39,252 bases of DNA, taken from NCBI GenBank assembly GCA_030535455.1, contig JAUNJY010000041.1, positions 1-39,252 of the forward strand, written 5' to 3'. Below are positions 10,038-33,512 of the stretch, piece by piece (position 1 is the first letter of the stretch; the number at the start of each line of letters is the position of its first letter). The translations under genes were made by a program, and so were the position numbers. The notes below the pieces were generated by a model. It made no database searches and was not told the DNA's origin. It saw only the letters and a program-made list of their open reading frames with translations. The DNA is from a bacterium. GTDB lineage: Bacteria; Bacillota; Clostridia; Lachnospirales; Lachnospiraceae.

Positions 10038-10066
10038 ACAGTAGAAATGTCAATTCATTTATTGAC

Positions 10067-10154
10067 AACTCTGGAGAGTCTCAAAAGCAACGAGCGCCGA
10101 AGGTGTACCACAGGTAATCTTACCTGTCTATCTCTCAGGCAAAAGGACAGAGCA
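10067..10154 (+). ncRNA. Glycine riboswitch, single aptamer
   Basis: The conserved glycine-aptamer segments are present in order: GGAGAG (10073-10078), GCGCCGAAGG (10094-10103), a variable P3b hairpin (ACAGGTAA/TTACCTGT) and TCTCAGGCAAAAGGACAGAG. P1 pairs CTCT (10069-10072) with AGAG (10149-10152). Only one aptamer is visible where many glycine riboswitches have two. A hairpin with a U-run follows, and an amino-acid:cation symporter is the controlled gene, which fits glycine-responsive transport. Confidence 0.93.
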
Positions 10155-10179
10155 ACAAAATGCGAATGTTCTACTCTTT

Positions 10180-10246: not shown

Positions 10247-11710
10247 ATGTTACAAACAATCAACAATATCTTAGTCGAAATTAATAATTTCGTATGGGGT
10301 GTGCCCCTAATCGTACTAATCCTGGCAACCGGAATCTTCTTAACGATTCGTTTAAAGGGATTACAACTCTTACAATTACCAAAAGCCCTCAAGTACATGT
10401 TCAAAAATGAGGATAGCGGAAGTGGCGAAGTTTCCAGTTTTGCTGCCTTATGTACCGCCTTATCTGCAACCATCGGAACCGGTAATATCGTCGGCGTAGC
10501 CACAGCATTAGTCGCTGGTGGACCTGGCGCTTTATTCTGGATGTGGGTTGCTGCCTTCTTTGGTATGGCAACAAAATATGCGGAAGGATTGCTTGCAATC
10601 AAATACCGTGTAATTGATAATACAGGACATGTAATTGGAGGACCATTCTACTACATAGAAGTTGGAATGGGTAACAAGTGGAAATGGCTTGGTAAAATCT
10701 TTGCATTCTTCGGCGTTGGCGTTGGCCTTCTCGGTATCGGTACCTTTACTCAGGTAAATGGTATCTCCAATGCAATCAACAATTTCTTTGATCCAACCAA
10801 TGCATGGACAGCCAATATCTTTGGCATTGAGTATTCCTGGACTGTAATTATCGCAGGAATTATCTTAACTGCTGCTGTCGGCCTTGTATTAATTGGAGGA
10901 ATAAAGCGTATCTCAAGCGTTTCACAAGTTGTCGTTCCATTTATGGCAGGGATTTATATTCTTTCCTGTATCATAATCTTAGTTACCAACGCAAGCAAAA
11001 TTCCTGCTGCCTTTGGTACTATTTTTGAAAGTGCCTTTGGCCTTCGCGCTGTTAGCGGCGGTGCCTTAGGTTCCATTATCCTTGCAATGCAAAAAGGTAT
11101 TGCAAGAGGTATCTTCTCTAATGAAGCTGGCCTTGGTAGTGCACCTATTGCTGCCGCTGCCGCACAGACAAATGAACCTGTCCGTCAGGGGCTTGTTTCT
11201 ATGACCGGTACCTTTATTGATACTATTTTAATCTGTACTATGACCGGCCTTTCCATCATCATTACAAACTCATGGAACATTGGCCTAGAAGGCGTTGCTG
11301 TTACAACCCATGCCTTCCAGCAAGGACTTCCATTTAACGGAACCGTCAGTGCATTCTTATTGATGCTCTGCTTGGTGTTCTTTGCCTTTACTACGATTTT
11401 AGGATGGAATTACTACAGTGAACGCTGCTTAGAATACCTGGTTGGTAATAAGCCAAATATAATCAAGGGTTTCCGATGGATCTACATCCTTGCTGTATTT
11501 ATTGGACCATTTATGACCGTTACTGCTGTCTGGACCATTGCAGATATCTTTAACGCACTAATGGCACTTCCTAACTTAATTGCCCTTGTAGCACTTAATG
11601 GGGTCATTGTGGCGGAAACGAAAGATTACTTTCAAAGAATAAAACAGTCTCAAGAAACCATGACCTCTGCTGTTACGGTAAATGGAGATGAAATTCCTGC
11701 AACTGAATAG
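10247..11710 (+). CDS. Alanine/glycine:cation symporter (AGCS family)
   Basis: 487 aa sodium- or proton-coupled alanine/glycine transporter of the AGCS (DagA/AlsT) family with about ten transmembrane helices. Diagnostic blocks are ALSATIGTGNIVGVATAL (about 66-83), GALFWMWVAAFFGMATKY, GPFYYIEVGMG, the signature SNEAGLGSAPIAAAAA (about 293-308) and FTTILGWNYYSERC. The start follows AGAGAGGA. The leader carries a glycine riboswitch, which points to glycine as a physiological substrate; whether the gene turns on or off with glycine is not settled by the sequence. Monocistronic, with its own terminator. Confidence 0.95.
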   Translation: MLQTINNILVEINNFVWGVPLIVLILATGIFLTIRLKGLQLLQLPKALKYMFKNEDSGSGEVSSFAALCTALSATIGTGNIVGVATALVAGGPGALFWMWVAAFFGMATKYAEGLLAIKYRVIDNTGHVIGGPFYYIEVGMGNKWKWLGKIFAFFGVGVGLLGIGTFTQVNGISNAINNFFDPTNAWTANIFGIEYSWTVIIAGIILTAAVGLVLIGGIKRISSVSQVVVPFMAGIYILSCIIILVTNASKIPAAFGTIFESAFGLRAVSGGALGSIILAMQKGIARGIFSNEAGLGSAPIAAAAAQTNEPVRQGLVSMTGTFIDTILICTMTGLSIIITNSWNIGLEGVAVTTHAFQQGLPFNGTVSAFLLMLCLVFFAFTTILGWNYYSERCLEYLVGNKPNIIKGFRWIYILAVFIGPFMTVTAVWTIADIFNALMALPNLIALVALNGVIVAETKDYFQRIKQSQETMTSAVTVNGDEIPATE

Positions 11711-22679: not shown

Positions 22680-23183
22680 CCAAGAAATACTTACTTAATT
22701 CTACTTTTAGTCTTTTGAAAGTAAGTAATTCTATGTCTAAAATAGAAGTAATCACACACTTTGTCACGCTCCAAAGTAAATCCCGGTCAATACCACGATT
22801 GCAGCAACCAGCTGTATTTCCTATTGAATTACAACCACATTACTTTTACATATACTATTTAACTGTCTCACCATCTCTTCTTTTGAAAAAACTTCTACTG
22901 CCCCCTCCATTGTGCCTGAATGAATATTCTTAATTTGGATTAAAATTATGCTGTTTGCCTTTGATTTCTTTACTAAGATATCTAAATCCAGCAAGCTTGT
23001 ATCTAATTTGGATGAAATGATTTTTAAGATTTTCTCTAAGTCCTTATATACCTTGCTTATATCTTTACGGGTAAACTCGTTTACAATACAAAAGCAATCT
23101 AATCTTCCATACCGAGTTTTAAGTGTCAATTTAAAAAAGCCTGAGCCTCCATTACTGGAGACCCAGGCTTTCTTAATCACTAG
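22680..23183. other. Gene-poor stretch with an ECF S-component scrap
   Basis: No convincing gene. A 119-aa minus-strand frame (22821-23180) begins inside a terminator hairpin, lacks a ribosome binding site and matches nothing I know. About 43 nt around 22771-22813 copy part of the S-component gene (near 23571-23613) with roughly four differences, encoding LVAAIVVLTGIYFG versus PVTAIVVLTGFYFG. The region looks like decayed DNA left by deletions or recombination. Confidence 0.55.
23136..23171 (-). terminator. Terminator of the cobalamin ECF operon
   Basis: AAAGCCTGGGTCTCCAGTAA folds back on TGGAGGCTCAGGCTTT and is followed by TTTAAATT on the minus strand, 13 bp after the S-component stop. Confidence 0.9.
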
Positions 23184-23864
23184 TTATATATTATAAATCC
23201 GCTTAATCCTAGCCAGCTTTTCACCCATTGGCTTTCGAAGCAGTAACAAGAATACCACATTGGATACTGCATAGATTACCATAAACGGCAATGACGTGCC
23301 AACTTTCAATAAAAATCTTCCAAGTACAAAGGAACCATCCAGTGCTAAAGTTGACCAAACATCCATAATCAAGGAATAGGCCACTCCACTAAGGATGCCA
23401 TAAATGGCAAGCCCTGTTTTGGTCTGTAAGACTCCATGCAACAGCTTACCCCCTGCAATAAATCCAATCAGTCCCCATGCAATCATCTGAAATGGGGTCC
23501 AAGGCCCTTGGCCAAATACCACATTGGAGACAAGTGCTGCCATGGCTCCTGTCACAAGGCCTGCTTCGCTTCCAAAGTAAAACCCGGTCAGTACCACGAT
23601 TGCAGTAACCGGCTTAAAGCCTGGTATGGGCAGAAATAAAAAACGACCTAACGTACAAAGGGCAATCATAATGGATAGCAACACAATACGTCTTGTAGAA
23701 ATCTTTTTTTCTTCGAAAGAAAGCATATAGATCAGGCACACACTAATGGCAATAATCAGTGCAACGGCATAATACCGTCGGTCGCCAAAACCAATTATGC
23801 CAACCGCCATGCTTCCCGGAATGACTACAAAGAGCAAGAGGCGTCTGATTAGTTTTGATAACAC
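23184..23864 (-). CDS. ECF transporter S component, probably for cobalamin or a corrinoid
   Basis: 226 aa with six or seven hydrophobic helices, the substrate-binding subunit of an energy-coupling-factor importer. Family traits: RRIVLLSIMIALCTLGRFLF, FKPVTAIVVLTGFYFGSEAG, ALVSNVVFGQGPWTPFQMIA and GLIGFIAG. The longer reading from ATG 23882 lacks a ribosome binding site; the GTG at 23862-23864 has GAGGAGG 7 nt ahead and is chosen. It overlaps the ATPase gene by 16 nt. The cobalamin riboswitch on the operon and transcobalamin-like neighbours indicate B12 or a precursor as cargo, like the CbrT group; the sequence alone does not prove it. Confidence 0.82.
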   Translation of the reverse strand: MLSKLIRRLLLFVVIPGSMAVGIIGFGDRRYYAVALIIAISVCLIYMLSFEEKKISTRRIVLLSIMIALCTLGRFLFLPIPGFKPVTAIVVLTGFYFGSEAGLVTGAMAALVSNVVFGQGPWTPFQMIAWGLIGFIAGGKLLHGVLQTKTGLAIYGILSGVAYSLIMDVWSTLALDGSFVLGRFLLKVGTSLPFMVIYAVSNVVFLLLLRKPMGEKLARIKRIYNI

Positions 23865-25501
23865 CAGATTACCTCCTCGCATGTAATCGCATCACTTACA
23901 AACTCTCTGGCAATACGGCTTGCCTGGGTTGTAAAGAAGCGGCTATTCTTAAGCACATTGCGCGGCGTATCCATGGCTATGATCTGATGGTCAAAGAACA
24001 ATCCCAGACGGTCTGAAATTGCTGCTGCAAACTCCACATCATGGGTTACCATTAAAATCGTCATGCCCTCATCATTTAATGCCTGCAATAACTCTTGTAA
24101 GGATTTCTTTGTCGTTCCATCTAAGCCCTTGGTTGGCTCATCCAAAATTAAAATCTGAGGATTTAAAAGAAGCACCTTGGCAAGACCAGCCCTCTGCTGC
24201 TCACCACCGCTTAAGTCATACGGATGCTTTTCTAATACATGTCGAATTCCAAGCTTGTCAGCAAGCTCATAGATCATGGCCTCTAATTCCTTCTTCGTAC
24301 AATCCCTTACATTACCCATTTCAAGCAAATCTTCAAAGACTGTATTCTTTACAAATAACGAAGTCGGGTTTTGAGGCAGATAACCAAGATTATCGACATA
24401 TAAGGAATTTCCCTTATATGCACTGATCTTCTTGCCATTTACAAAGCATTTTCCGCTGTATGGCTTCTTCTGTCCTGATAATACTGATAACAACGTAGTC
24501 TTACCTGAACCATTTCCACCTAACAAGGAATAAATCTTTCCTTGCTCCACCGTTAAGGATACCCCTTTTAAGATATCCTCTCCACCACGGTCATAGCGAA
24601 AATACAATTCTTTTAGGCGAATTGCCTCTTCCCCTATGCTGGCCGCTTGAAGAGTCTCCTCTTCGATCGAGTGATTTGGAAGAATGCCCTGCTGCTTTAA
24701 TCTTCTTAAGTATTCTCGCCCCTCTTTTTCCGTAAGTGGACATTCTCCACCACGTTTTATGCCATGATAAATCTTAACCGCACTTGGCACACTGTATTCT
24801 AACGACTCTACCTTATCCTTTAACACCTCTCTTGGTGCTCCGTCTAATAGAACCTTTCCGTCTTCTAACACGATCAGTCGGTCTGCTACACCAAGCACTT
24901 CTTCTAAATGATGTTCCACCATTACAATGGTAAGTCCAAGCTGCTCATTTAATTTCTTTACGGTCTGAATAAACTCTGCTGCCATAATGGGATCTAATTG
25001 GGCCGTCGGTTCATCTAACAGCAGGATGTTTGGCTCCATTACAAGGACGGAAGCTAGATTCAAGATCTGCTTTTGCCCCCCAGAAAGCTCAGAAGTCTTC
25101 TTATGGAACCAATGCTCGATGCCAAAATAATGGGCCATCTCTGCTACTTTGAAACGAATTAAATCCGACTTCACATTCATATTTTCAAGGCCAAAGGCAA
25201 GCTCATGCCATACCTCATCCGTTACGATCTGGGCATCCGGATTTTGCATCACATACCCGATCTGGCTTGGAAGATACTCAATCTTTTCTCCCTCTTTATA
25301 AAACTCAATACTTCCTGATAAATCGCCTGCTTTTGTAAGTTCTTTCTTTAAGAGACGAAGAAGTGTTGTCTTACCGCAGCCAGATTCCCCACATATTACG
25401 ACAAACTCCCCTTCCTTTACATTAAAAGAACAGTTGTCTAAGATACGCTTTTCCTGATCCACATAAGAAAACGTTACATCTTTGACTGTAATACATTCCA
25501 T
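23849..25501 (-). CDS. ECF transporter ATPase with two fused ABC cassettes
   Basis: 550 aa carrying two complete ATP-binding cassettes, the fused equivalent of EcfA and EcfA'. Cassette 1: Walker A GESGCGKTT (38-46), signature LSGGQKQ, Walker B ILLLDEPTAQLD. Cassette 2: Walker A GGNGSGKTT (about 330), signature LSGGEQQ, Walker B ILILDEPTKGLD. Both sites look catalytically complete. It drives the transmembrane EcfT and the S component encoded on either side; the start lies inside the end of ecfT (28-nt overlap), so expression is coupled. No second S component is in this operon, suggesting a dedicated (group I) transporter. Confidence 0.92.
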   Translation of the reverse strand: MECITVKDVTFSYVDQEKRILDNCSFNVKEGEFVVICGESGCGKTTLLRLLKKELTKAGDLSGSIEFYKEGEKIEYLPSQIGYVMQNPDAQIVTDEVWHELAFGLENMNVKSDLIRFKVAEMAHYFGIEHWFHKKTSELSGGQKQILNLASVLVMEPNILLLDEPTAQLDPIMAAEFIQTVKKLNEQLGLTIVMVEHHLEEVLGVADRLIVLEDGKVLLDGAPREVLKDKVESLEYSVPSAVKIYHGIKRGGECPLTEKEGREYLRRLKQQGILPNHSIEEETLQAASIGEEAIRLKELYFRYDRGGEDILKGVSLTVEQGKIYSLLGGNGSGKTTLLSVLSGQKKPYSGKCFVNGKKISAYKGNSLYVDNLGYLPQNPTSLFVKNTVFEDLLEMGNVRDCTKKELEAMIYELADKLGIRHVLEKHPYDLSGGEQQRAGLAKVLLLNPQILILDEPTKGLDGTTKKSLQELLQALNDEGMTILMVTHDVEFAAAISDRLGLFFDHQIIAMDTPRNVLKNSRFFTTQASRIAREFVSDAITCEEVIWCYQN

Positions 25502-26355
25502 TTCATTTTCTCCTTAATCTCTAAGCAAATCGGCATAACTGCCAAACTCACAAAACATATATAATAAATCCACTCTCTTGGATGAACTTCCAATTTCATT
25601 ACAGATGGATAATAGGAATAGGCAAAAACGTTGGTCACTGCACCGGCATAAAATCCTGCTGCAATCAGTACAAGCCAAAACATTCTGACTTTGTCAGCTC
25701 CGCCAAAACGATAAATGGTAAAGTTAGACCGCCTTCCCTGTCCATAGCCTCTTGCATTCATGGAATCTGCCGTTGTCACTCCCTGTTCCAAAGACCAGGT
25801 AATCAAGGAGTCAAATACACGAATTTTTGATATAATCTGATCCATATAGCCATGCTTGCTATACATGCCCATAGCCTTCTGCATGTCAGATACCGACTTG
25901 GCCTGACGTTTTAACTTGGGTACAAAGCCGAATGCCATGGATAATAATAAGGCAAGCTTTGGACTGATTTTTTGAAATAAATATAAAAACTGATTGATTT
26001 TAAATACCTCGGCAAAACAGCGGCTGTATGCAAACACTGCTGCCATCTTTCCACCCATTGCCGCACCATATAAAATTGCCTCTTTGGTAACTGCATTTCC
26101 ATTAAGAAAGAACAAAACCGTTTCTCCCCTATGGCTAAACAAAGGATTGGTCACCATAATGATCAGGGCAAGCAACAGATAAAACACTAGGTTTTTAATC
26201 CATTCACTGCGGCTAAGCAAAAAGTACAGCCATCCAATGCTTCCAATCACCGCACCAAGAATAAGGATAGGCTGGTCAAATGCCATGCTGATGACTAACA
26301 TATTCACATAAAAGAAAAAGGTCACCAGTGGGTGCCAGTGGGTTATAAAGCTCAT
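25474..26355 (-). CDS. ECF transporter transmembrane component EcfT
   Basis: 293 aa, five or six transmembrane helices, with the cytoplasmic coupling motif ADSMNARGYGQGRRSNF (the A-R-G box that contacts the ATPase) and AFGFVPKLKRQAKSV in the coupling helices. EcfT links ATP hydrolysis to toppling of the S component. It follows the 180-aa DUF4430 gene by 4 nt with GTAAGGAT before the ATG. Confidence 0.9.
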   Translation of the reverse strand: MSFITHWHPLVTFFFYVNMLVISMAFDQPILILGAVIGSIGWLYFLLSRSEWIKNLVFYLLLALIIMVTNPLFSHRGETVLFFLNGNAVTKEAILYGAAMGGKMAAVFAYSRCFAEVFKINQFLYLFQKISPKLALLLSMAFGFVPKLKRQAKSVSDMQKAMGMYSKHGYMDQIISKIRVFDSLITWSLEQGVTTADSMNARGYGQGRRSNFTIYRFGGADKVRMFWLVLIAAGFYAGAVTNVFAYSYYPSVMKLEVHPREWIYYICFVSLAVMPICLEIKEKMKWNVLQSKM

Positions 26356-26359
26356 ATCC

Positions 26360-26902
26360 TTACTCTCTTCCTATATCTTTTCCAAGGTCGCATGTATAGC
26401 GAAATGCGACCTTGTCACCATCTTTTAACTCATACTTGCTGGTCCCGTAGTCCGGAATCTTATCATTGATCGTATACATCCAGCCACTTAAAGAGCCCGC
26501 TGAAAACTCATATAGATTGTTAATTCCCTGGATATAGACGCTTCCATAGGCATTTCCATCCGCTCCTTGGTATTCCAGCTGAATTTTATTTTCCTTCGTT
26601 GCCTTCTTAAGGAGGTCAAATGCGCTGTCGCCTTCCTTCATCTGATAGATCGTTTCCTTTAAGATTACACCGTCTTTGGGCACATAAGTCTCACTTTGCA
26701 GGCTCTGGTCTAGCTTATCATAATTATCAAGCAGTGTATCACAGTAGATGCCGATGGATACCTCTATGGTCTTGCCTTCGTTACTGCTGTCAGCGCTATA
26801 ATATTCGTCTACTGTCTGGAACTTGATCTTGCTTACTGCAAATGCAACAATTGCAACTAATACAAGATAGATAACAATTCTTTTATATCTTTTTTGTTTC
26901 AT
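26360..26902 (-). CDS. Membrane-anchored DUF4430 protein (transcobalamin beta-domain-like)
   Basis: 180 aa. Residues 8-24 form an N-terminal membrane anchor without a lipobox. The rest (about 45-178) is a DUF4430 domain: SAFDLLKKATKENKIQLEYQ, then the hallmark LSGWMYTINDKIPDYGTSKY (137-157 region), LKDGDKVAFRYT and DLGKDIG. This domain is the one shared with the C-terminal beta-domain of vertebrate transcobalamin and intrinsic factor, which covers one face of bound B12. It lies outside the membrane, encoded between the alpha-domain-like protein and EcfT under a cobalamin riboswitch, so a role in capturing or handing over cobalamin is likely though inferred. Confidence 0.82.
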   Translation of the reverse strand: MKQKRYKRIVIYLVLVAIVAFAVSKIKFQTVDEYYSADSSNEGKTIEVSIGIYCDTLLDNYDKLDQSLQSETYVPKDGVILKETIYQMKEGDSAFDLLKKATKENKIQLEYQGADGNAYGSVYIQGINNLYEFSAGSLSGWMYTINDKIPDYGTSKYELKDGDKVAFRYTCDLGKDIGRE

Positions 26903-26911
26903 ATTACTCCC

Positions 26912-27958
26912 TTATTGGAACTGATACAGCGGACTCTTTTCATTTACAAATCGGTCATAGGCAATCAATGCATAGAATGCCTGCTCACTGGCAATGGCAT
27001 TTGACTCCTTCATCTCCTCTGTATGTGAAAATCCTCCATCTGGATTTAAAAATGTCACTAATCCATCAATTACTGTGTTCCCATTCTTTATAAATCGCTG
27101 ATCCTGTTGTAGGTCAATCTCAAGTGCGGTAAGTGCAACGATTACTTGGGAAACCGTTTCACTGCTTTCTGTCTTCTTGTCGAGGAAGGTTCCTTTGTCT
27201 GTCTGGATTCCAGAAAGATACGTAAGTGCCTTATCAATGGCAATCTTAACTTCCTGCTCCCCTTTATATGGTGCCAAAGAGGTAAGCGCCATTGCTGTAA
27301 TATCGGCACTCTCCTGTCCTTGTACTATGGCAAATGCCCCGTTTTTCTGTTGATAACTAAGTATTTTTGCCACTATCTCTTCACGACTATAAAAAGCATC
27401 TTCCGGCACTTCATACTCCTTGCTGTCTAGCAAAATAAGTGCCCAAATATATCCGTTTAGCCCTTGTATATCTAACTGTGCTGTCTTCCCACGGTTATAT
27501 GTCCCGTCACTTACCAAATCAAATAGCCTTTCCCCTACCATTACATTGGAAGGATCCACACCAAGTGCCTGCAATGTAAGTCCAACACGGTGCCACTCTG
27601 TTGCCTTATTTGGATCAAGACCGCCTGTCTTTTCATATCGTTCCTTAATATTTTGAAGCAAGGCTTCTCTATAAATATCGTACTGGTCCTCAACTCCTGC
27701 TCTTGCCATGGAAAATACGAACCAGTCTCCACTTGAAGTTCCCGCCTGCATTGCATACTCTTTGGTAATCAGCGGTTCATCCTTCTTTATTCCTAACGTT
27801 TCTTTCTTCCATTCAATAATGTTCTCCATCATGCTTTCCACTTTTATAAGGCTCTCACATGCCTTACGTTTTCTTGATGAAGTGACTCCAATTGCAATCA
27901 CAAGAAGAAATGATAGAATCGCTATGATTAAAATTTTCTTTTTATTATGTCTTCTCAT
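26912..27958 (-). CDS. Transcobalamin alpha-domain-like (alpha6/alpha6 barrel) surface protein
   Basis: 348 aa with an N-terminal membrane anchor (8-27) after a basic cluster. The rest consists of repeated helical pairs of the prenyltransferase/squalene-cyclase barrel type: GLDPNKATEWHRVGLTLQAL, LNGYIWALILLDS, ESADITAMALTSLAPY, SSETVSQVIVALTAL and SNAIASEQAFYALIAYDRF, interspersed with NGAFA, KGTF and DGGF turns. The same fold makes up the N-terminal alpha-domain of intrinsic factor and transcobalamin. Lanthipeptide- or terpene-type catalytic residues are not seen. With DUF4430 proteins on both sides (10 and 25 nt away) it probably supplies the other half of a split cobalamin-binding unit. 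Confidence 0.78.
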   Translation of the reverse strand: MRRHNKKKILIIAILSFLLVIAIGVTSSRKRKACESLIKVESMMENIIEWKKETLGIKKDEPLITKEYAMQAGTSSGDWFVFSMARAGVEDQYDIYREALLQNIKERYEKTGGLDPNKATEWHRVGLTLQALGVDPSNVMVGERLFDLVSDGTYNRGKTAQLDIQGLNGYIWALILLDSKEYEVPEDAFYSREEIVAKILSYQQKNGAFAIVQGQESADITAMALTSLAPYKGEQEVKIAIDKALTYLSGIQTDKGTFLDKKTESSETVSQVIVALTALEIDLQQDQRFIKNGNTVIDGLVTFLNPDGGFSHTEEMKESNAIASEQAFYALIAYDRFVNEKSPLYQFQ

Positions 27959-27983
27959 TTTTACTTACTTCTCCTCTGTAGGC

Positions 27984-29006
27984 CTAAGCATCATATCCTA
28001 AACATAGTGTATATTTTAATAGCACATGATCTCCTACCTTTAAGTCATACTCGGACATGCCCACATTGGCATAGGTTCCATTAACACTATACCGCCAACC
28101 AGAGTACTTTGTAAAATCAAATTCTCCCAAACTGTCAGATTTGTAGCTATTGATACGAAGCTTAACATCTTGTTCCTCTAAAATTGACAGCACTCTTTGA
28201 GGTACGACTGGATTTCTTACCAAATTAGCTTTTGTAATTGCCTGTAAATAAAACATGCTGTCAACGCTTCCTTGGCTGGTATATCCAAATCCCTCCTGGG
28301 TTAGTCCCCGGGTAATCACTGCTGCTACACTTTCCCCCTGCTTTACTTCCACCTTAGCATTTTTAATATAGGTTCCATTTCCAATTACGCTGGCATCCAC
28401 AGTCAATGTAATTGTCGATGCTGATGGCGTAGATGTCTTCTCTGGCACTGTGGCAGATGGACTCTTTGCAGGAACTGTCGTTGGAGTTTGGGTTGGTTTT
28501 CTCGTTGGCTTCTTAGTCACCTTTGCTGTAGGTGTCATGGTTGCTGGTTTTGCCGTTACTGGTTTTGCCGTTACTGCTTGTGCCGGACTTTTGGTTGGCT
28601 TTCTCGTTGCAGTAGCTGTCTTGCTTGCCGAAGTTTTATTTGTCTGATCTGTGGTGCTTACAACTGGCACCTCTGTTGGCAATATTGTCTGCATGCCTTC
28701 TGTTTCCACTGGTGCTATACTAACTCCAGGTTCCTTGGTACTCTCTGGCTCCACTGTTGCTTCAGGTGTGGCACTTTCTACTACTGACGGTGTGTCCTTT
28801 ATTGTTTTAAGATCTGACCCAGGTGTTTCTTCTGCCAAGTCCTTTGGCCCCTGTGTCTCACTGGCCTTTTCTACTCTTTGATTATCTTCGCTGGCTGGCT
28901 GATTTTTGCCGACAAATCCTTGTTTATATATGATTGTTCCAGCTGTAATGGCCAATATAATACATAAGACTAGAATAATAATAGGTCTTAACGCCTTATT
29001 TTTCAT
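27984..29006 (-). CDS. Long-linker DUF4430 surface protein (transcobalamin beta-domain-like)
   Basis: 340 aa, first gene of the cobalamin operon. Residues 8-27 anchor the protein in the membrane; about 31-195 form an extended Thr/Pro/Ser/Lys/Ala-rich stalk with repeats such as KPTRKPTQTPT and TAKPVTAKPATMTPTAK; about 198-340 are a DUF4430 domain with YSGWRYSVNGTYANVGMS (301-318) and LKVGDHVLLKYTLCLG. The stalk could carry the domain across the peptidoglycan, making this the outermost receptor, with the shorter 180-aa protein nearer the transporter. The leader contains a cobalamin riboswitch 220 nt upstream. Confidence 0.82.
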   Translation of the reverse strand: MKNKALRPIIILVLCIILAITAGTIIYKQGFVGKNQPASEDNQRVEKASETQGPKDLAEETPGSDLKTIKDTPSVVESATPEATVEPESTKEPGVSIAPVETEGMQTILPTEVPVVSTTDQTNKTSASKTATATRKPTKSPAQAVTAKPVTAKPATMTPTAKVTKKPTRKPTQTPTTVPAKSPSATVPEKTSTPSASTITLTVDASVIGNGTYIKNAKVEVKQGESVAAVITRGLTQEGFGYTSQGSVDSMFYLQAITKANLVRNPVVPQRVLSILEEQDVKLRINSYKSDSLGEFDFTKYSGWRYSVNGTYANVGMSEYDLKVGDHVLLKYTLCLGYDA

Positions 29007-29087
29007 AACCTTACCTCTTAATTTCTCTTTATAATCTCATTGAGCTAATAGGAAATCAAAAGCGGTATTCTCTATACAAAATAAATG

Positions 29088-29175
29088 GGAGTTCCCCATA
29101 GTACCGTGTACAAACAATCACTTCAAAGTTCAAGCGATGAAAATACAATAGCACTGCTACGGAAGCTCCCAAGTA
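29088..29175 (-). terminator. Long imperfect hairpin, likely expression platform of the B12 riboswitch
   Basis: On the minus strand TGGGAGCTTCCGTAG at 29175 folds back on CTATGGGGAACTCCCA near 29088, with weaker pairing all the way to the loop, and is followed by TTTATTTTG. It lies between the aptamer and the first start codon, where a regulated terminator is expected. A small GTTCT/AGAAC hairpin precedes it (about 29190-29213). Confidence 0.55.
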
Positions 29176-29229
29176 TACTTATATAAAAATTCGTTCTACC
29201 GTTCTCCATTACCCAAGAACTTCTTCACC

Positions 29230-29390
29230 ATATTGGCAGGTCTCCTGACTTATGCTTCACCCTTCAAAGATCCTTCCTGCTTTATATATAAGGCAGTGGT
29301 TATATTCTTTGTCGTCTGCAATTACAGTAGAGGTCGCTGTGGAGGATTTTCACCCCGCTTCCCTTATTAAGAACGCTATTTCACCAATAT
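29230..29390 (-). ncRNA. Cobalamin (AdoCbl-type) riboswitch
   Basis: Minus-strand order of conserved elements: GGGAAGCGGGGTGAAAATCC, then CCACAGCGACC, TACTGTAA, CCACTGCC, GGAAGGATC, and the B12 box AAGTCAGGAGACCTGCC. P1 pairs ATATTGG (29384-29390) with CCAATAT (29230-29236). This is the standard class-I cobalamin aptamer, which normally turns genes off when B12 is plentiful. It precedes the DUF4430/ECF operon and is the main evidence for its substrate. Confidence 0.95.
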
Positions 29391-29449
29391 TGTCTTAAGT
29401 TGTAACTTATCATAACATACGCAGGTTTCATGTTTCAACCCTTACTTCA

Positions 29450-29854: not shown

Positions 29855-31222
29855 CTAAGCTTCAACCTCTACGGCAGCCCCTTCAACATCCATGTTCTTT
29901 GGAAGAACTAGGTTTAATAGGATTGCCATAATGAATACAACTGCAACGCAATTTTCAGCAAATACATTGCGGATGATTTCAGGGAAGACTCTAAAGATAT
30001 CAGGTACTTGTGTAAATCCGATACCCACACTTAAAGATAAGGCAACAATTAATAAATTTCTTTGGTTATAGCCACACTTTGCAACCATATGTAGGCCACT
30101 GACTACGATGGAACCAAACATAATCAACGTACATCCGCCAAGAACAGGTTCCGGCAAGGTTGCCAATAAGTTTCCGAACACTGGGAACAGCCCTGCAATT
30201 ACCATAATGATGGCACCCATAAGGATTGTAAAACGATTTACTACCTTAGTCATCGCAACAAGTCCAACATTCTGGCTAAACGATGTAATTGGCATACAGC
30301 CAAATAAAGAAGAAATTGCACTTATGAAACCGTCACAGGCAACAGAACCGCTGATTTCCTTTTCCGTAGACTCACGATCAAGCGCAGTCTCTGATAATGC
30401 GAAAGTATCGCCAATTGTCTCTGTTGCAGAAACTAAGAAGATCAATACTACAGATACAATGGCATTAATATTGAATTCTGGCTTAAATGGCAAGAATTGT
30501 GGTAATGAAATTACACTGCTGTTTAAAACTGGAGAAAAATCAACTTTTCCCATCCAGATTGCAACAATATATCCAACTACTAGTCCTGCAAGAACTGCTA
30601 ATTGTTTAAAATAGTTCTTTGCGAAAATAGTAAATAAAAGGCAAGTAAGTAAGGTGATGGTTCCAAGAATCAAGTTAGATGAAGAACCAAAATCCGCGCT
30701 TCCATTTCCACCGCCAAAGGAATGAGCCCCTACATTAAGCAAGGAAAAACCAATTGCAGTAACTACGGTTGCAGAAACAATCGGAGTAATTAACCTTCTC
30801 CAGTATTTTGCAAATAATCCAAGGAATCCTTCAATAATACCTCCGACTAAGACAGCGCCTACGATTGCATTATATCCATATTTTACACCTATGGTAATAA
30901 AGATGGAAACAAAGGTAAAACTAATTCCCATAACGATTGGCAATCTGGATCCTATTTTCCAAACCGGATATAACTGGATCATGGTTCCAATTCCGGCAAT
31001 TAACATGGCGCATTGAATTAATCTTGCTGTGTCCTCACCTGAAAGACCACAAGCCTGTGCTACAATAATGATTGGTGTGATATTGGCAACAAACATGGCT
31101 AATACATGCTGCAGACCAAATGGAATTGCTTTTAAAACTGGCACTTTGCCATCTAGCTGATAGATATTTGATACCTTTGAATTGGCATCTGTTTGATTAG
31201 ATCGTACTTTACTTTTTGTCAT
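29855..31222 (-). CDS. Purine permease, NCS2 family (xanthine/uric acid-like)
   Basis: 455 aa, about twelve to fourteen transmembrane segments, of the nucleobase:cation symporter-2 family. The family signature QNVGLVAMTK (Q-N-x-G-x4-T-K) and the substrate-site ATETIGDTFALSE are present, as is the early AIPFGLQHVLAMFVANITPI. The sequence is nearer the xanthine/urate (PbuX/PucK) branch than uracil permeases. The leader holds a purine riboswitch with C at the specificity position, so guanine, hypoxanthine or xanthine controls it. ATG follows GGAGG. Confidence 0.92.
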   Translation of the reverse strand: MTKSKVRSNQTDANSKVSNIYQLDGKVPVLKAIPFGLQHVLAMFVANITPIIIVAQACGLSGEDTARLIQCAMLIAGIGTMIQLYPVWKIGSRLPIVMGISFTFVSIFITIGVKYGYNAIVGAVLVGGIIEGFLGLFAKYWRRLITPIVSATVVTAIGFSLLNVGAHSFGGGNGSADFGSSSNLILGTITLLTCLLFTIFAKNYFKQLAVLAGLVVGYIVAIWMGKVDFSPVLNSSVISLPQFLPFKPEFNINAIVSVVLIFLVSATETIGDTFALSETALDRESTEKEISGSVACDGFISAISSLFGCMPITSFSQNVGLVAMTKVVNRFTILMGAIIMVIAGLFPVFGNLLATLPEPVLGGCTLIMFGSIVVSGLHMVAKCGYNQRNLLIVALSLSVGIGFTQVPDIFRVFPEIIRNVFAENCVAVVFIMAILLNLVLPKNMDVEGAAVEVEA

Positions 31223-31309: not shown

Positions 31310-31328
31310 ATACCTTACAAAATTCTAT

Positions 31329-31395
31329 ATCGTAGTCAAATCATTTAAGGCGATTTGGTAGAAACTGTTGAACCATATCATCAACGTTATACGAT
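31329..31395 (-). ncRNA. Purine riboswitch, guanine type
   Basis: Minus strand: P1 ATCGTA/TACGAT, J1-2 TATAAC, loop 2 TGATATGG, junction GTTTCTACC, loop 3 GCCTTAAA, and the final TTTGACTACG. All core positions of the purine aptamer are present. The nucleotide that pairs with ligand is C (in GACTA), which is diagnostic for guanine/hypoxanthine rather than adenine. Precedes the NCS2 permease gene. Confidence 0.95.
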
Positions 31396-31417
31396 GCATT
31401 GCTTTAATCTTTTAGAT

Positions 31418-32290: not shown

Positions 32291-32827
32291 ATGGATACTA
32301 ATTATGACAATCAATCTGATTTTGAACCAATAGATTCCAAACACATTGATGATCAACAATTGGAAGACGAACAAGTAGACTCTCAGCAAATGGAAGACGA
32401 TATGGATATAATAGAAGAAGATCAGCTGGAAAACGATCAGCTGGACTCTCAGGAAATTGATTCACAAGAATTTGATTTACAGGAGTTTGATACTCAGGAA
32501 TTTGCTGCTCAAGAATTTGATCAGGATAACTATGTATATGAGCAGGATGATTACGATACGCTTGACTATGAACAATTAGATTATGAGCAACTGGATGATG
32601 AGGATGAGGATAAGGATAACGATCAAGTAGAAGCTACCAACTGGCGTATCGGTATTTTTCCTCCAGGATGTGGCCCTTACGGATGCCCAGGACTTGGCTG
32701 GGGTCCATATAGATGCGGCCCATATGGCTGTGTTGGCGGCGGCTGGTATCGACCAGGCTGGAACCGACCTGGACGTAGGTGGAATCCAAATTGGAACCGA
32801 CCTGGCTGGAATAGAAGGCCTTGGTAA
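32291..32827 (+). CDS. Two-part low-complexity protein: acidic repeats and Gly/Trp/Arg-rich tail
   Basis: 178 aa, no signal peptide or membrane segment. Residues 1-115 are very acidic and Gln-rich with short repeats (QEFD, QLDSQE, YEQLD); residues 116-178 are basic and rich in Gly, Pro, Trp, Tyr, Cys and Arg (PGCGPYGCPG, RCGPYGC, WNRPG repeated). Such charge-segregated, aromatic-rich composition occurs in spore-coat and other self-assembling proteins, but I do not recognise a family. Start ATG follows TAGGTGA. The codon pattern keeps the repeats partly degenerate, so it is a true coding sequence. Convergent with the c-di-GMP riboswitch transcript. Confidence 0.75.
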   Translation: MDTNYDNQSDFEPIDSKHIDDQQLEDEQVDSQQMEDDMDIIEEDQLENDQLDSQEIDSQEFDLQEFDTQEFAAQEFDQDNYVYEQDDYDTLDYEQLDYEQLDDEDEDKDNDQVEATNWRIGIFPPGCGPYGCPGLGWGPYRCGPYGCVGGGWYRPGWNRPGRRWNPNWNRPGWNRRPW

Positions 32828-33360: not shown

Positions 33361-33410
33361 ATATTGTTATTCATAAATTATTGAAATTAACAAAAAGTAT
33401 GATGTACTCT

Positions 33411-33489
33411 TTGGCAACTGGCTGACATAGTATTTTTCAATACGTTAGTCCCTATAGCTTTGCGTCCCTAGATTTATCTAGGTTTGCCT
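33411..33489 (-). ncRNA. c-di-GMP-I riboswitch (GEMM-I)
   Basis: Minus strand shows the conserved parts in order: AGGCAAACC, a CTAGAT/ATCTAG P2 arm, GGGACGCAAAGC, ACTAA, then a P3 arm closed by GTCAGCCAGTTGCC. The tetraloop receptor and the G and A residues that hold the two guanines of c-di-GMP are recognisable. It has its own promoter and a terminator hairpin but no protein gene follows on the same strand. Confidence 0.88.
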
Positions 33490-33512
33490 ATTAAGTTTAT
33501 TAATACCTAGAC

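Follow-up and report, generated by a model that had tools for sequence, protein, structure and literature searches.

A cobalamin riboswitch-led operon in a Lachnospiraceae genome encoding an ECF importer and a candidate split surface system for B12 capture

Contig JAUNJY010000041.1 (NCBI GenBank assembly GCA_030535455.1) belongs to a gut-type bacterium of the family Lachnospiraceae (Clostridia). It was analysed over its entire length of 39,252 nucleotides and is called the window below. On its minus strand lie six genes headed by a cobalamin riboswitch. From 5' to 3' they encode a DUF4430 (SLBB) protein on a long stalk, an alpha/alpha-toroid protein, a short DUF4430 protein, and the coupling protein EcfT, a double-cassette ATPase and the S component of an energy-coupling factor (ECF) importer. 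Here we describe this operon, its occurrence in relatives and in the class, and its relation to the B12 carriers of animals. The operon as a whole is read as a system for the capture and import of corrinoids (B12), at a probability of roughly 0.8.

The operon and its products

An open reading frame (ORF) check found all six genes at the coordinates of Table 1. One operon with these genes and a cobalamin riboswitch at its head had been described from the letters of the DNA (the sequence-only reading), and this description holds. Its limits, 23184..29390, agree with the gene coordinates and fall slightly short at the upper end, where the aptamer reaches 29403. Following the direction of transcription, the first three intergenic gaps measure 25, 9 and 4 bases, and the last two gene pairs overlap by 28 and 34 bases. 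A small downstream ORF (22821-23180) was considered as a seventh part and rejected, as it is without a match among the ORFs of loci L027-L061. A relative with 80% identity (locus L031) shares with the window these genes, their order and the riboswitch. The ratio of nonsynonymous to synonymous substitution rates between the two is 0.05-0.12 in the folded parts, which indicates purifying selection, and 0.40 in the stalk.

Table 1. Features of the operon in the window and beta-propeller proteins at related loci
Feature	Coordinates	Strand	Evidence
Promoter, sigma-70-like, TTGAAA-18-TATGAT, extended -10 TG, just before the aptamer	29409..29438	-	consensus match only
Cobalamin riboswitch aptamer	29218..29403	-	RF00174, 87.4 bits, E 2e-20, model 1-189 (full length)
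Long terminator-like hairpin, then UUUAUUUUG (U-rich)	29075..29185	-	-37.8 kcal/mol, z -4.97, 0/200 shuffles as stable
Stalked DUF4430 (SLBB) protein, 340 aa; C-terminal SLBB domain 27987-28421	27984..29006	-	PF14478 1.1e-8, 35.8 bits
Alpha/alpha-toroid protein, 348 aa, N-terminal anchor	26912..27958	-	Prenyltrans toroid PF00432 1.7e-6, 28.1 bits
Short anchored DUF4430 (SLBB) protein, 180 aa	26360..26902	-	PF14478 8.3e-20, 71.5 bits
EcfT (CbiQ-type) transmembrane coupling protein, 293 aa	25474..26355	-	PF02361 8.4e-10
EcfA double-cassette ATPase, 550 aa	23849..25501	-	NCBIfam TIGR04520 1.8e-112, TIGR04521 3e-104; ABC_tran twice
S component, CbrT-like, 232 aa	23184..23882	-	PF07155 3.9e-10
Beta-propeller protein (own genome)	L043:3924-6662		
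Beta-propeller protein	L062:3448-8088		
Beta-propeller protein	L068:5054-12289		
Beta-propeller protein	L032:11272-16785		
Beta-propeller protein	L027:12625-14724		

The gathering score of RF00174 is 31.5 bits. The hairpin sits between the aptamer and the first gene and is likely the expression platform. In L031 the equivalent stretch has a z of -2.70 with 4 of 200 shuffles as stable, the stem being kept and the inner part different. The switch would be off when B12 is present. Both hexamers of the promoter candidate, a consensus match in a region that holds 28 promoter-like matches against a mean of 20.0 in shuffles, are identical in L031.

A single hydrophobic segment near the N-terminus (residues 9-27) is present in each of the three proteins encoded ahead of ecfT, in which a simple pattern search found neither a lipobox nor LPXTG. 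The two kinds of domain thus lie on separate anchored chains, as had been proposed. The PF14478 scores of both DUF4430 proteins exceed the cut-off (23.8 bits) and, together with the export/anchor segments, place both in the transcobalamin-like SLBB clade. The stalk of the long one (about residues 35-195) consists of 20% Thr, 14% Pro and 11% Lys, and its make-up is kept in L031 while its letters are not (41% identity). Composition and anchors bear out the earlier distinction between one SLBB protein on a long Thr/Pro stalk and one short anchored one. The toroid protein is barely above the PF00432 cut-off of 26.5 bits. Elsewhere in the own genome a small DUF4430 protein of 152 aa (L044:9941-10399) is encoded on a contig that gave no cobalamin riboswitch match. 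Genomes of the class contain about a dozen more small DUF4430 frames of this kind (138-173 aa), and the domain may have other uses.

The importer has its cognate EcfT and two ATPase cassettes in the same operon as the S component, as is expected of a CbrT-type importer and of the dedicated importer that had been claimed. When 20 S components of such operons were combined into a profile and compared with solved structures, 6fnp_A was best (E 2.6e-20), followed by 4hzu_S (2.5e-5). The structure listing describes 6fnp merely as 'Membrane protein'; we take it to be CbrT, the B12 S component of Lactobacillus delbrueckii. A CbrT-like S component is thus well supported at the level of sequence profiles, and the set of EcfT, double ATPase and S component presumably has its counterpart in CbrUVT. 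Uptake of cobalt or nickel was considered and rejected: the S component itself matches PF07155, its family profile matches 6fnp, and no CbiM/NikM-type family is among the matches. ATPases and S component form one polypeptide in five loci of the family (L050, L051, L052, L053, L059) and in two class-level loci (L077, L081), and 28 of the 67 listed S places lie in open frames of at least 700 aa (counted by eye, part of them examined), so that the S component is often tied to its own module.

Further riboswitches occur in the window. A glycine riboswitch (10061-10160, plus strand) precedes the gene 10247-11710, and a purine riboswitch (31313-31414, minus strand) precedes the gene 29855-31222, which is permease-like by eye. 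A cyclic di-GMP (c-di-GMP)-I riboswitch lies at 33410-33498 (minus strand), with no minus-strand ORF of at least 100 aa between there and 32159. Aptamers for c-di-GMP-I and purine are also found upstream of the operon in L031. A plus-strand ORF of the window (32291-32827) encodes acidic near-repeats (DSQEFDLQEF...) and a Gly/Pro/Trp-rich end.

Occurrence in relatives and in the class

Of 100 genomes sampled in the family, 18 (counting the own genome) contain relatives of the toroid protein, and 11 loci were found in a named genome collection. The 34 toroid loci examined comprise the window and 33 others, some of them from one genome. Toroid, SLBB, EcfT, EcfA and S component are all present in 20 of the 34, and RF00174 in 18, at three of which (L032, L043, L047) it stands beside the toroid gene and not before it; in two further loci (G030:C5, G027:C10) it lies just outside the fetched stretch. 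Several of the remaining loci lie on short contigs. Among the genomes of 17 relatives, RF00174 exceeds the cut-off in 12 and in none of the other five. Each of the 12 has a copy at a toroid/SLBB locus: in 11 it lies within about 10 kilobases (kb) of a toroid match (E<=0.001) on the same contig, and in G014, the remaining one, a weak toroid and a DUF4430 gene follow it. These counts bear out the expectation that the surface genes co-occur with B12 riboswitches and ECF genes.

The finding of homologous operons under another ligand would have spoken against a role in B12 uptake, and none was seen among the toroid loci scanned with Rfam at the gathering score: no other metabolite riboswitch heads any of them. 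The only others present, the purine and c-di-GMP aptamers of L031, are assigned to neighbouring genes, just as their counterparts in the window are, and another regulating ligand was therefore rejected.

To avoid choosing loci by their toroid, 147 genomes of the class (completeness of at least 90 requested) were searched with an S-component profile, which gave matches at 1e-10 in 60. Proximity was counted in 59 of these, the own genome being left out, from the first base of each place and for RF00174 over the cut-off only; one place search used stricter filters and lost weak matches. A toroid relative is present in 51 of the 59 genomes, a DUF4430 match in 55 and RF00174 in 53. In 34 genomes no more than 15 kb separate the S component from RF00174, whereas riboswitch number and genome size would give 1.6 such genomes by chance, and a chance neighbourhood of riboswitch and genes was rejected on this ground. 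S component and toroid lie within 15 kb of each other in 38 genomes, and toroid and RF00174 are close in 40. Seen from the riboswitch, RF00174 is near an S component or toroid in 43 of the 53 genomes that have any, and 57 of the 117 riboswitches are so placed. Exactly one RF00174 occurs in 30 genomes, near an S component or toroid in 22; in five of the remaining eight (G132, G160, G210, G213, G222) a DUF4430 match lies within 5 kb of it, as judged by eye.

A conserved domain of about 410 positions, a beta-propeller of BamB/PQQ type, occurs in large exported proteins at five loci (Table 1; L045 and L068 overlap, and their propeller gene was counted once). The gene stands directly behind a cobalamin riboswitch in four of the five (not in L027) and adjoins toroid or SLBB genes. 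In the own genome it is divergent from a gene for a second toroid protein (L043:6670-8877, 629 aa) with a C-terminal hydrophobic anchor. Judged by sequence, the riboswitch-led propeller is a possible Gram-positive counterpart of BtuG.

The own genome also contains a long corrin-biosynthesis operon (L042) behind its own cobalamin riboswitch, with much of the anaerobic pathway among the part of its ORFs that was scanned. Matches are to cbiK (under the NCBIfam cut-off), cbiL, cbiD, cbiF, cbiH, cbiJ and cbiET, together with haem-precursor genes, a CbiA/glutamine-amidotransferase-type gene and a CobT-type gene. The stated contamination of this genome is 7.7%, and the pathway is therefore likely, not certain, to come from the same organism.

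Toroid and SLBB domains, joined and separate

Vertebrate intrinsic factor, transcobalamin and haptocorrin hold one B12 between a toroid and a DUF4430-type beta-grasp domain, as PMC1796856 describes; PMC4350170 names DUF4430 for the TCN proteins. The sequence-only reading had likened the window's proteins to these halves. A link to the carriers is supported through relatives of the window's family. In the class-level genome G106 the carrier family PF01122 exceeds its cut-off at two places (E 4.3e-15 and 4.2e-13), both of them toroid-profile places beside a cobalamin riboswitch. The first G106 protein, 1395 aa long, combines PF01122 (1e-13) with DUF4430 (4.5e-13) and three SLH anchors, and its riboswitch-led ECF operon continues with an ordinary toroid of the window's family, a short SLBB protein, EcfT and a fused ECF ATPase-S. 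Weaker PF01122 matches in G134 (9e-6), G144 (2.4e-4) and G114 (0.0011) are on toroids, also behind riboswitches. At E<=1 there are 12 PF01122 places, of which eight coincide, by eye, with toroid places; the four others are in G126, G127, G107 and G191 (E 0.0057 to 0.11). A profile of five PF01122-matching toroids had haptocorrin (4kki) as its best solved structure (E 0.0015), followed by intrinsic factor (0.021) and transcobalamin II (0.29) with unrelated chains in between. The profile A1 of the window's toroid family aligns with that five-toroid profile (hhalign) at 99.7% probability and E 8e-26. As the PF01122 matches and the profile link sit in sister toroids, the relation of the toroid family to the vertebrate carriers is, on these profile comparisons, taken to be real and to run through intermediates.

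Toroid and SLBB domains in one chain occur in both orders. The order of the carriers, toroid then SLBB, is found in L027, L030, L034 (second toroid), L057, L060, L061, L077, L079 and L081. One chain is also the arrangement of the PF01122 family; the window has three separate ORFs. Mapped on the best of the toroid trees of 33 rows, the arrangement (separate, toroid-SLBB or SLBB-toroid) has to change seven times, and the well-supported branches alone force three changes for the separate state. Alignment A6, which took the place of one with misaligned stalks (A5), keeps a few stray end residues. In 20 of 22 loci ecfT is directly preceded by the short SLBB gene or by a chain that has this SLBB as its C-terminal part; the exceptions are L054 and L056. 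For this count three EcfT rows were set aside (the general ECF locus L044 and the second EcfT of L054 and of L063), and the adjacency in L063, where an overlap exceeded the tolerance, was judged from coordinates. In G030 two divergent cobalamin riboswitches are found, one serving an SLBB and ECF operon and the other a giant SLBB...toroid protein.

The repeated one-chain proteins argue that toroid and SLBB work together, as does the protein of G106 with PF01122 and DUF4430, and we favour joint action of the two, with splitting as one of several arrangements. They might instead bind a corrinoid singly or in sequence, without a shared clamp, and the importer would still take B12. This alternative is doubtful and has several observations on its side: 21 of the 33 aligned toroid rows have no SLBB in the same chain (labels assigned by hand), the short SLBB stays by EcfT whether the toroid is fused or not, there are two SLBB proteins per toroid, and some genomes have an S component and DUF4430 but no toroid match. 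Correlations of distance matrices among toroid, SLBB, EcfT, EcfA and S component are 0.64-0.82 in every pair and fall to 0.26-0.34 with the ATPase partialled out (three pairs tried). As they are high in every pair, the ATPase included, they reflect common descent of the operon and not contact.

Probable corrinoid capture and import

The B12 assignment of the operon is strong. Its computed basis is the gene content, the riboswitch with its hairpin, the relation of the S component to CbrT, the co-localisation across Clostridia, the fused relatives and the bridge to PF01122. From this basis we infer B12 binding, a clamp, a division of labour between the outside proteins and a hand-over to the importer. 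A shared clamp of toroid and SLBB, taken by itself, is plausible and stands at about even odds; a two-step relay is a guess.

Several results weigh against corrinoid capture and import. In the survey of the class, no riboswitch lies within 15 kb of an S component or toroid in 10 of 53 genomes (contig ends included), six of 59 genomes have no RF00174 over the cut-off, and eight of 59 have an S component and no toroid at E<=1e-10. DUF4430 also occurs away from cobalamin riboswitches, as on the L044 contig of the own genome, and the domain alone therefore does not mean B12. The own genome carries much of the B12 pathway, so that import need not be essential. PF01122 does not match the window toroid itself even at E<=10. 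Of the 33 family members, two match it at E<=0.1 (the better one at 0.0041), and the PF01122 cut-off is reached in none of 17 near genomes (best E 0.00397) and in one of 59 class-level genomes. Against the PDB, the best solved structures for the toroid family profile are squalene-hopene-type cyclases, and no carrier was found with the DUF4430 profile A2. A structure model of a fused relative's toroid is a confident toroid with linker parts of pLDDT under 50, and the toroid fold of the PF01122 family is thus predicted for that relative. Among the 50 structural matches listed for this model the nearest are terpene cyclases and sugar epimerases, and no B12 carrier is included, which by itself does not speak against the likeness to intrinsic factor that the sequence-only reading had expected of the barrel.

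These neighbours in sequence and, among the matches listed, in fold would suit a toroid with an enzymatic or structural role, the outside proteins binding another ligand or the cell wall and the ECF part alone handling B12; the large relatives with wall-binding and Ig-like domains would suit it as well. Such a division is improbable, given the sequence bridge to PF01122 and to carriers in the PDB, and given toroid genes that stand by a cobalamin riboswitch with the ECF genes not in the same transcript (the divergent pairs of L043 and G030).

A different question is which corrinoid is taken up. Another corrinoid or a precursor (cobinamide, pseudo-B12), or several, would be compatible with corrinoid capture and import and would alter only the ligand. 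We consider this possible, at somewhat less than even odds. The corrin pathway of the own genome makes salvage of variants plausible, and ECF-CbrT transports both cobalamin and cobinamide, as reported in PMC5997447; the riboswitch class does not settle which corrinoid is bound. If pathway and operon belong to the same organism, the operon likely serves to salvage corrinoids in an organism that also makes them, in contrast to the non-producers on which the work of 2007 (PMC1796856) laid stress.

For corrinoid capture and import the following course is proposed. When adenosylcobalamin or a related corrinoid is scarce, the riboswitch would let transcription past the terminator. The products would be an ECF importer of EcfT, double EcfA and a CbrT-like S component, and three proteins on the outer face, each held by its N-terminal helix. 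The toroid and one SLBB domain would most likely each contribute one face of a single B12 site, in the manner of transcobalamin and intrinsic factor but from separate chains. The SLBB protein with the stalk would reach further out in the wall, and the short one, encoded nearly always next to ecfT, would stay at the membrane and help to hand the corrinoid over to the S component.

A more far-reaching picture, which we regard as speculative and on the whole unlikely, is a relay across the wall. B12 would join the split toroid and SLBB, the stalked SLBB protein taking it up close to the surface of the wall and the short one releasing it to the CbrT-like S component, with ligand-induced pairing of tethered halves in place of a soluble binding protein and, in some sets, a riboswitch-led beta-propeller as an additional catcher. 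Such sets would be a main path of B12 into many Clostridia and would be related to whatever gave rise to the carriers of animals.

Binding of B12 by the outside proteins, if real, would reveal the way in which many Clostridia capture the vitamin at their surface, ECF importers would gain an unusual extracellular partner, and the proposal of 2007 that the animal carriers come from Gram-positive bacteria would become testable with the single-chain bacterial relatives.

Comparison with known systems

The nearest precedent is the work of Burroughs et al. 2007 (PMC1796856). It describes bacterial SLBB and toroid proteins with a surface location, proposes B12 scavenging for them, notes a second SLBB paralogue and CbiO/CbiQ genes in operons, and proposes a transfer of B12 carriers from Gram-positive bacteria to animals. 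The sequence-only reading knew of no experimental work on such a Gram-positive set. None was found in open-access full texts, most subscription papers lying outside that scope; the idea itself had been predicted in 2007. The two extracellular domains are the same in both cases, with SLBB both stand-alone and in multidomain proteins in the 2007 set. There the toroid is fused to SLBB, whereas here a toroid and two SLBB proteins are encoded by three genes. The hosts of 2007 are usually without key enzymes of B12 synthesis, whereas the present genome has much of the corrin pathway. The word riboswitch is absent from that paper, and here a cobalamin riboswitch and a CbrT-like S component are present. 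New relative to 2007 are the coupling to the riboswitch, the CbrT-like S component, the repeated splitting and fusion, the breadth in Clostridia and the riboswitch-led beta-propeller companion.

ECF-CbrT of Lactobacillus delbrueckii, for which ATP-driven transport of B12 and cobinamide has been demonstrated (PMC5997447), is likewise an ECF importer with a related S component. According to the available part of that paper, CbrT shares its ECF module with other S components and no outside capture proteins are mentioned, whereas here EcfT and EcfA share the operon with the S component and three outside proteins are encoded. CbrUVT, given as a B12 transporter (PMC6593275), resembles the present set in being linked to B12 and in having an ECF module of its own; the sections available make no mention of outside proteins. 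BtuG of Bacteroides shares with the present proteins the capture of B12 at the surface before membrane transport, and with the companion the beta-propeller. It is a seven-bladed lipoprotein on an outer-membrane TonB-dependent transporter, with no toroid or SLBB in the available account (PMC10404256). The vertebrate carriers, finally, unite toroid and beta-grasp domain in one chain, whereas the window encodes them on separate anchored chains with a toroid that lies outside PF01122 by sequence.

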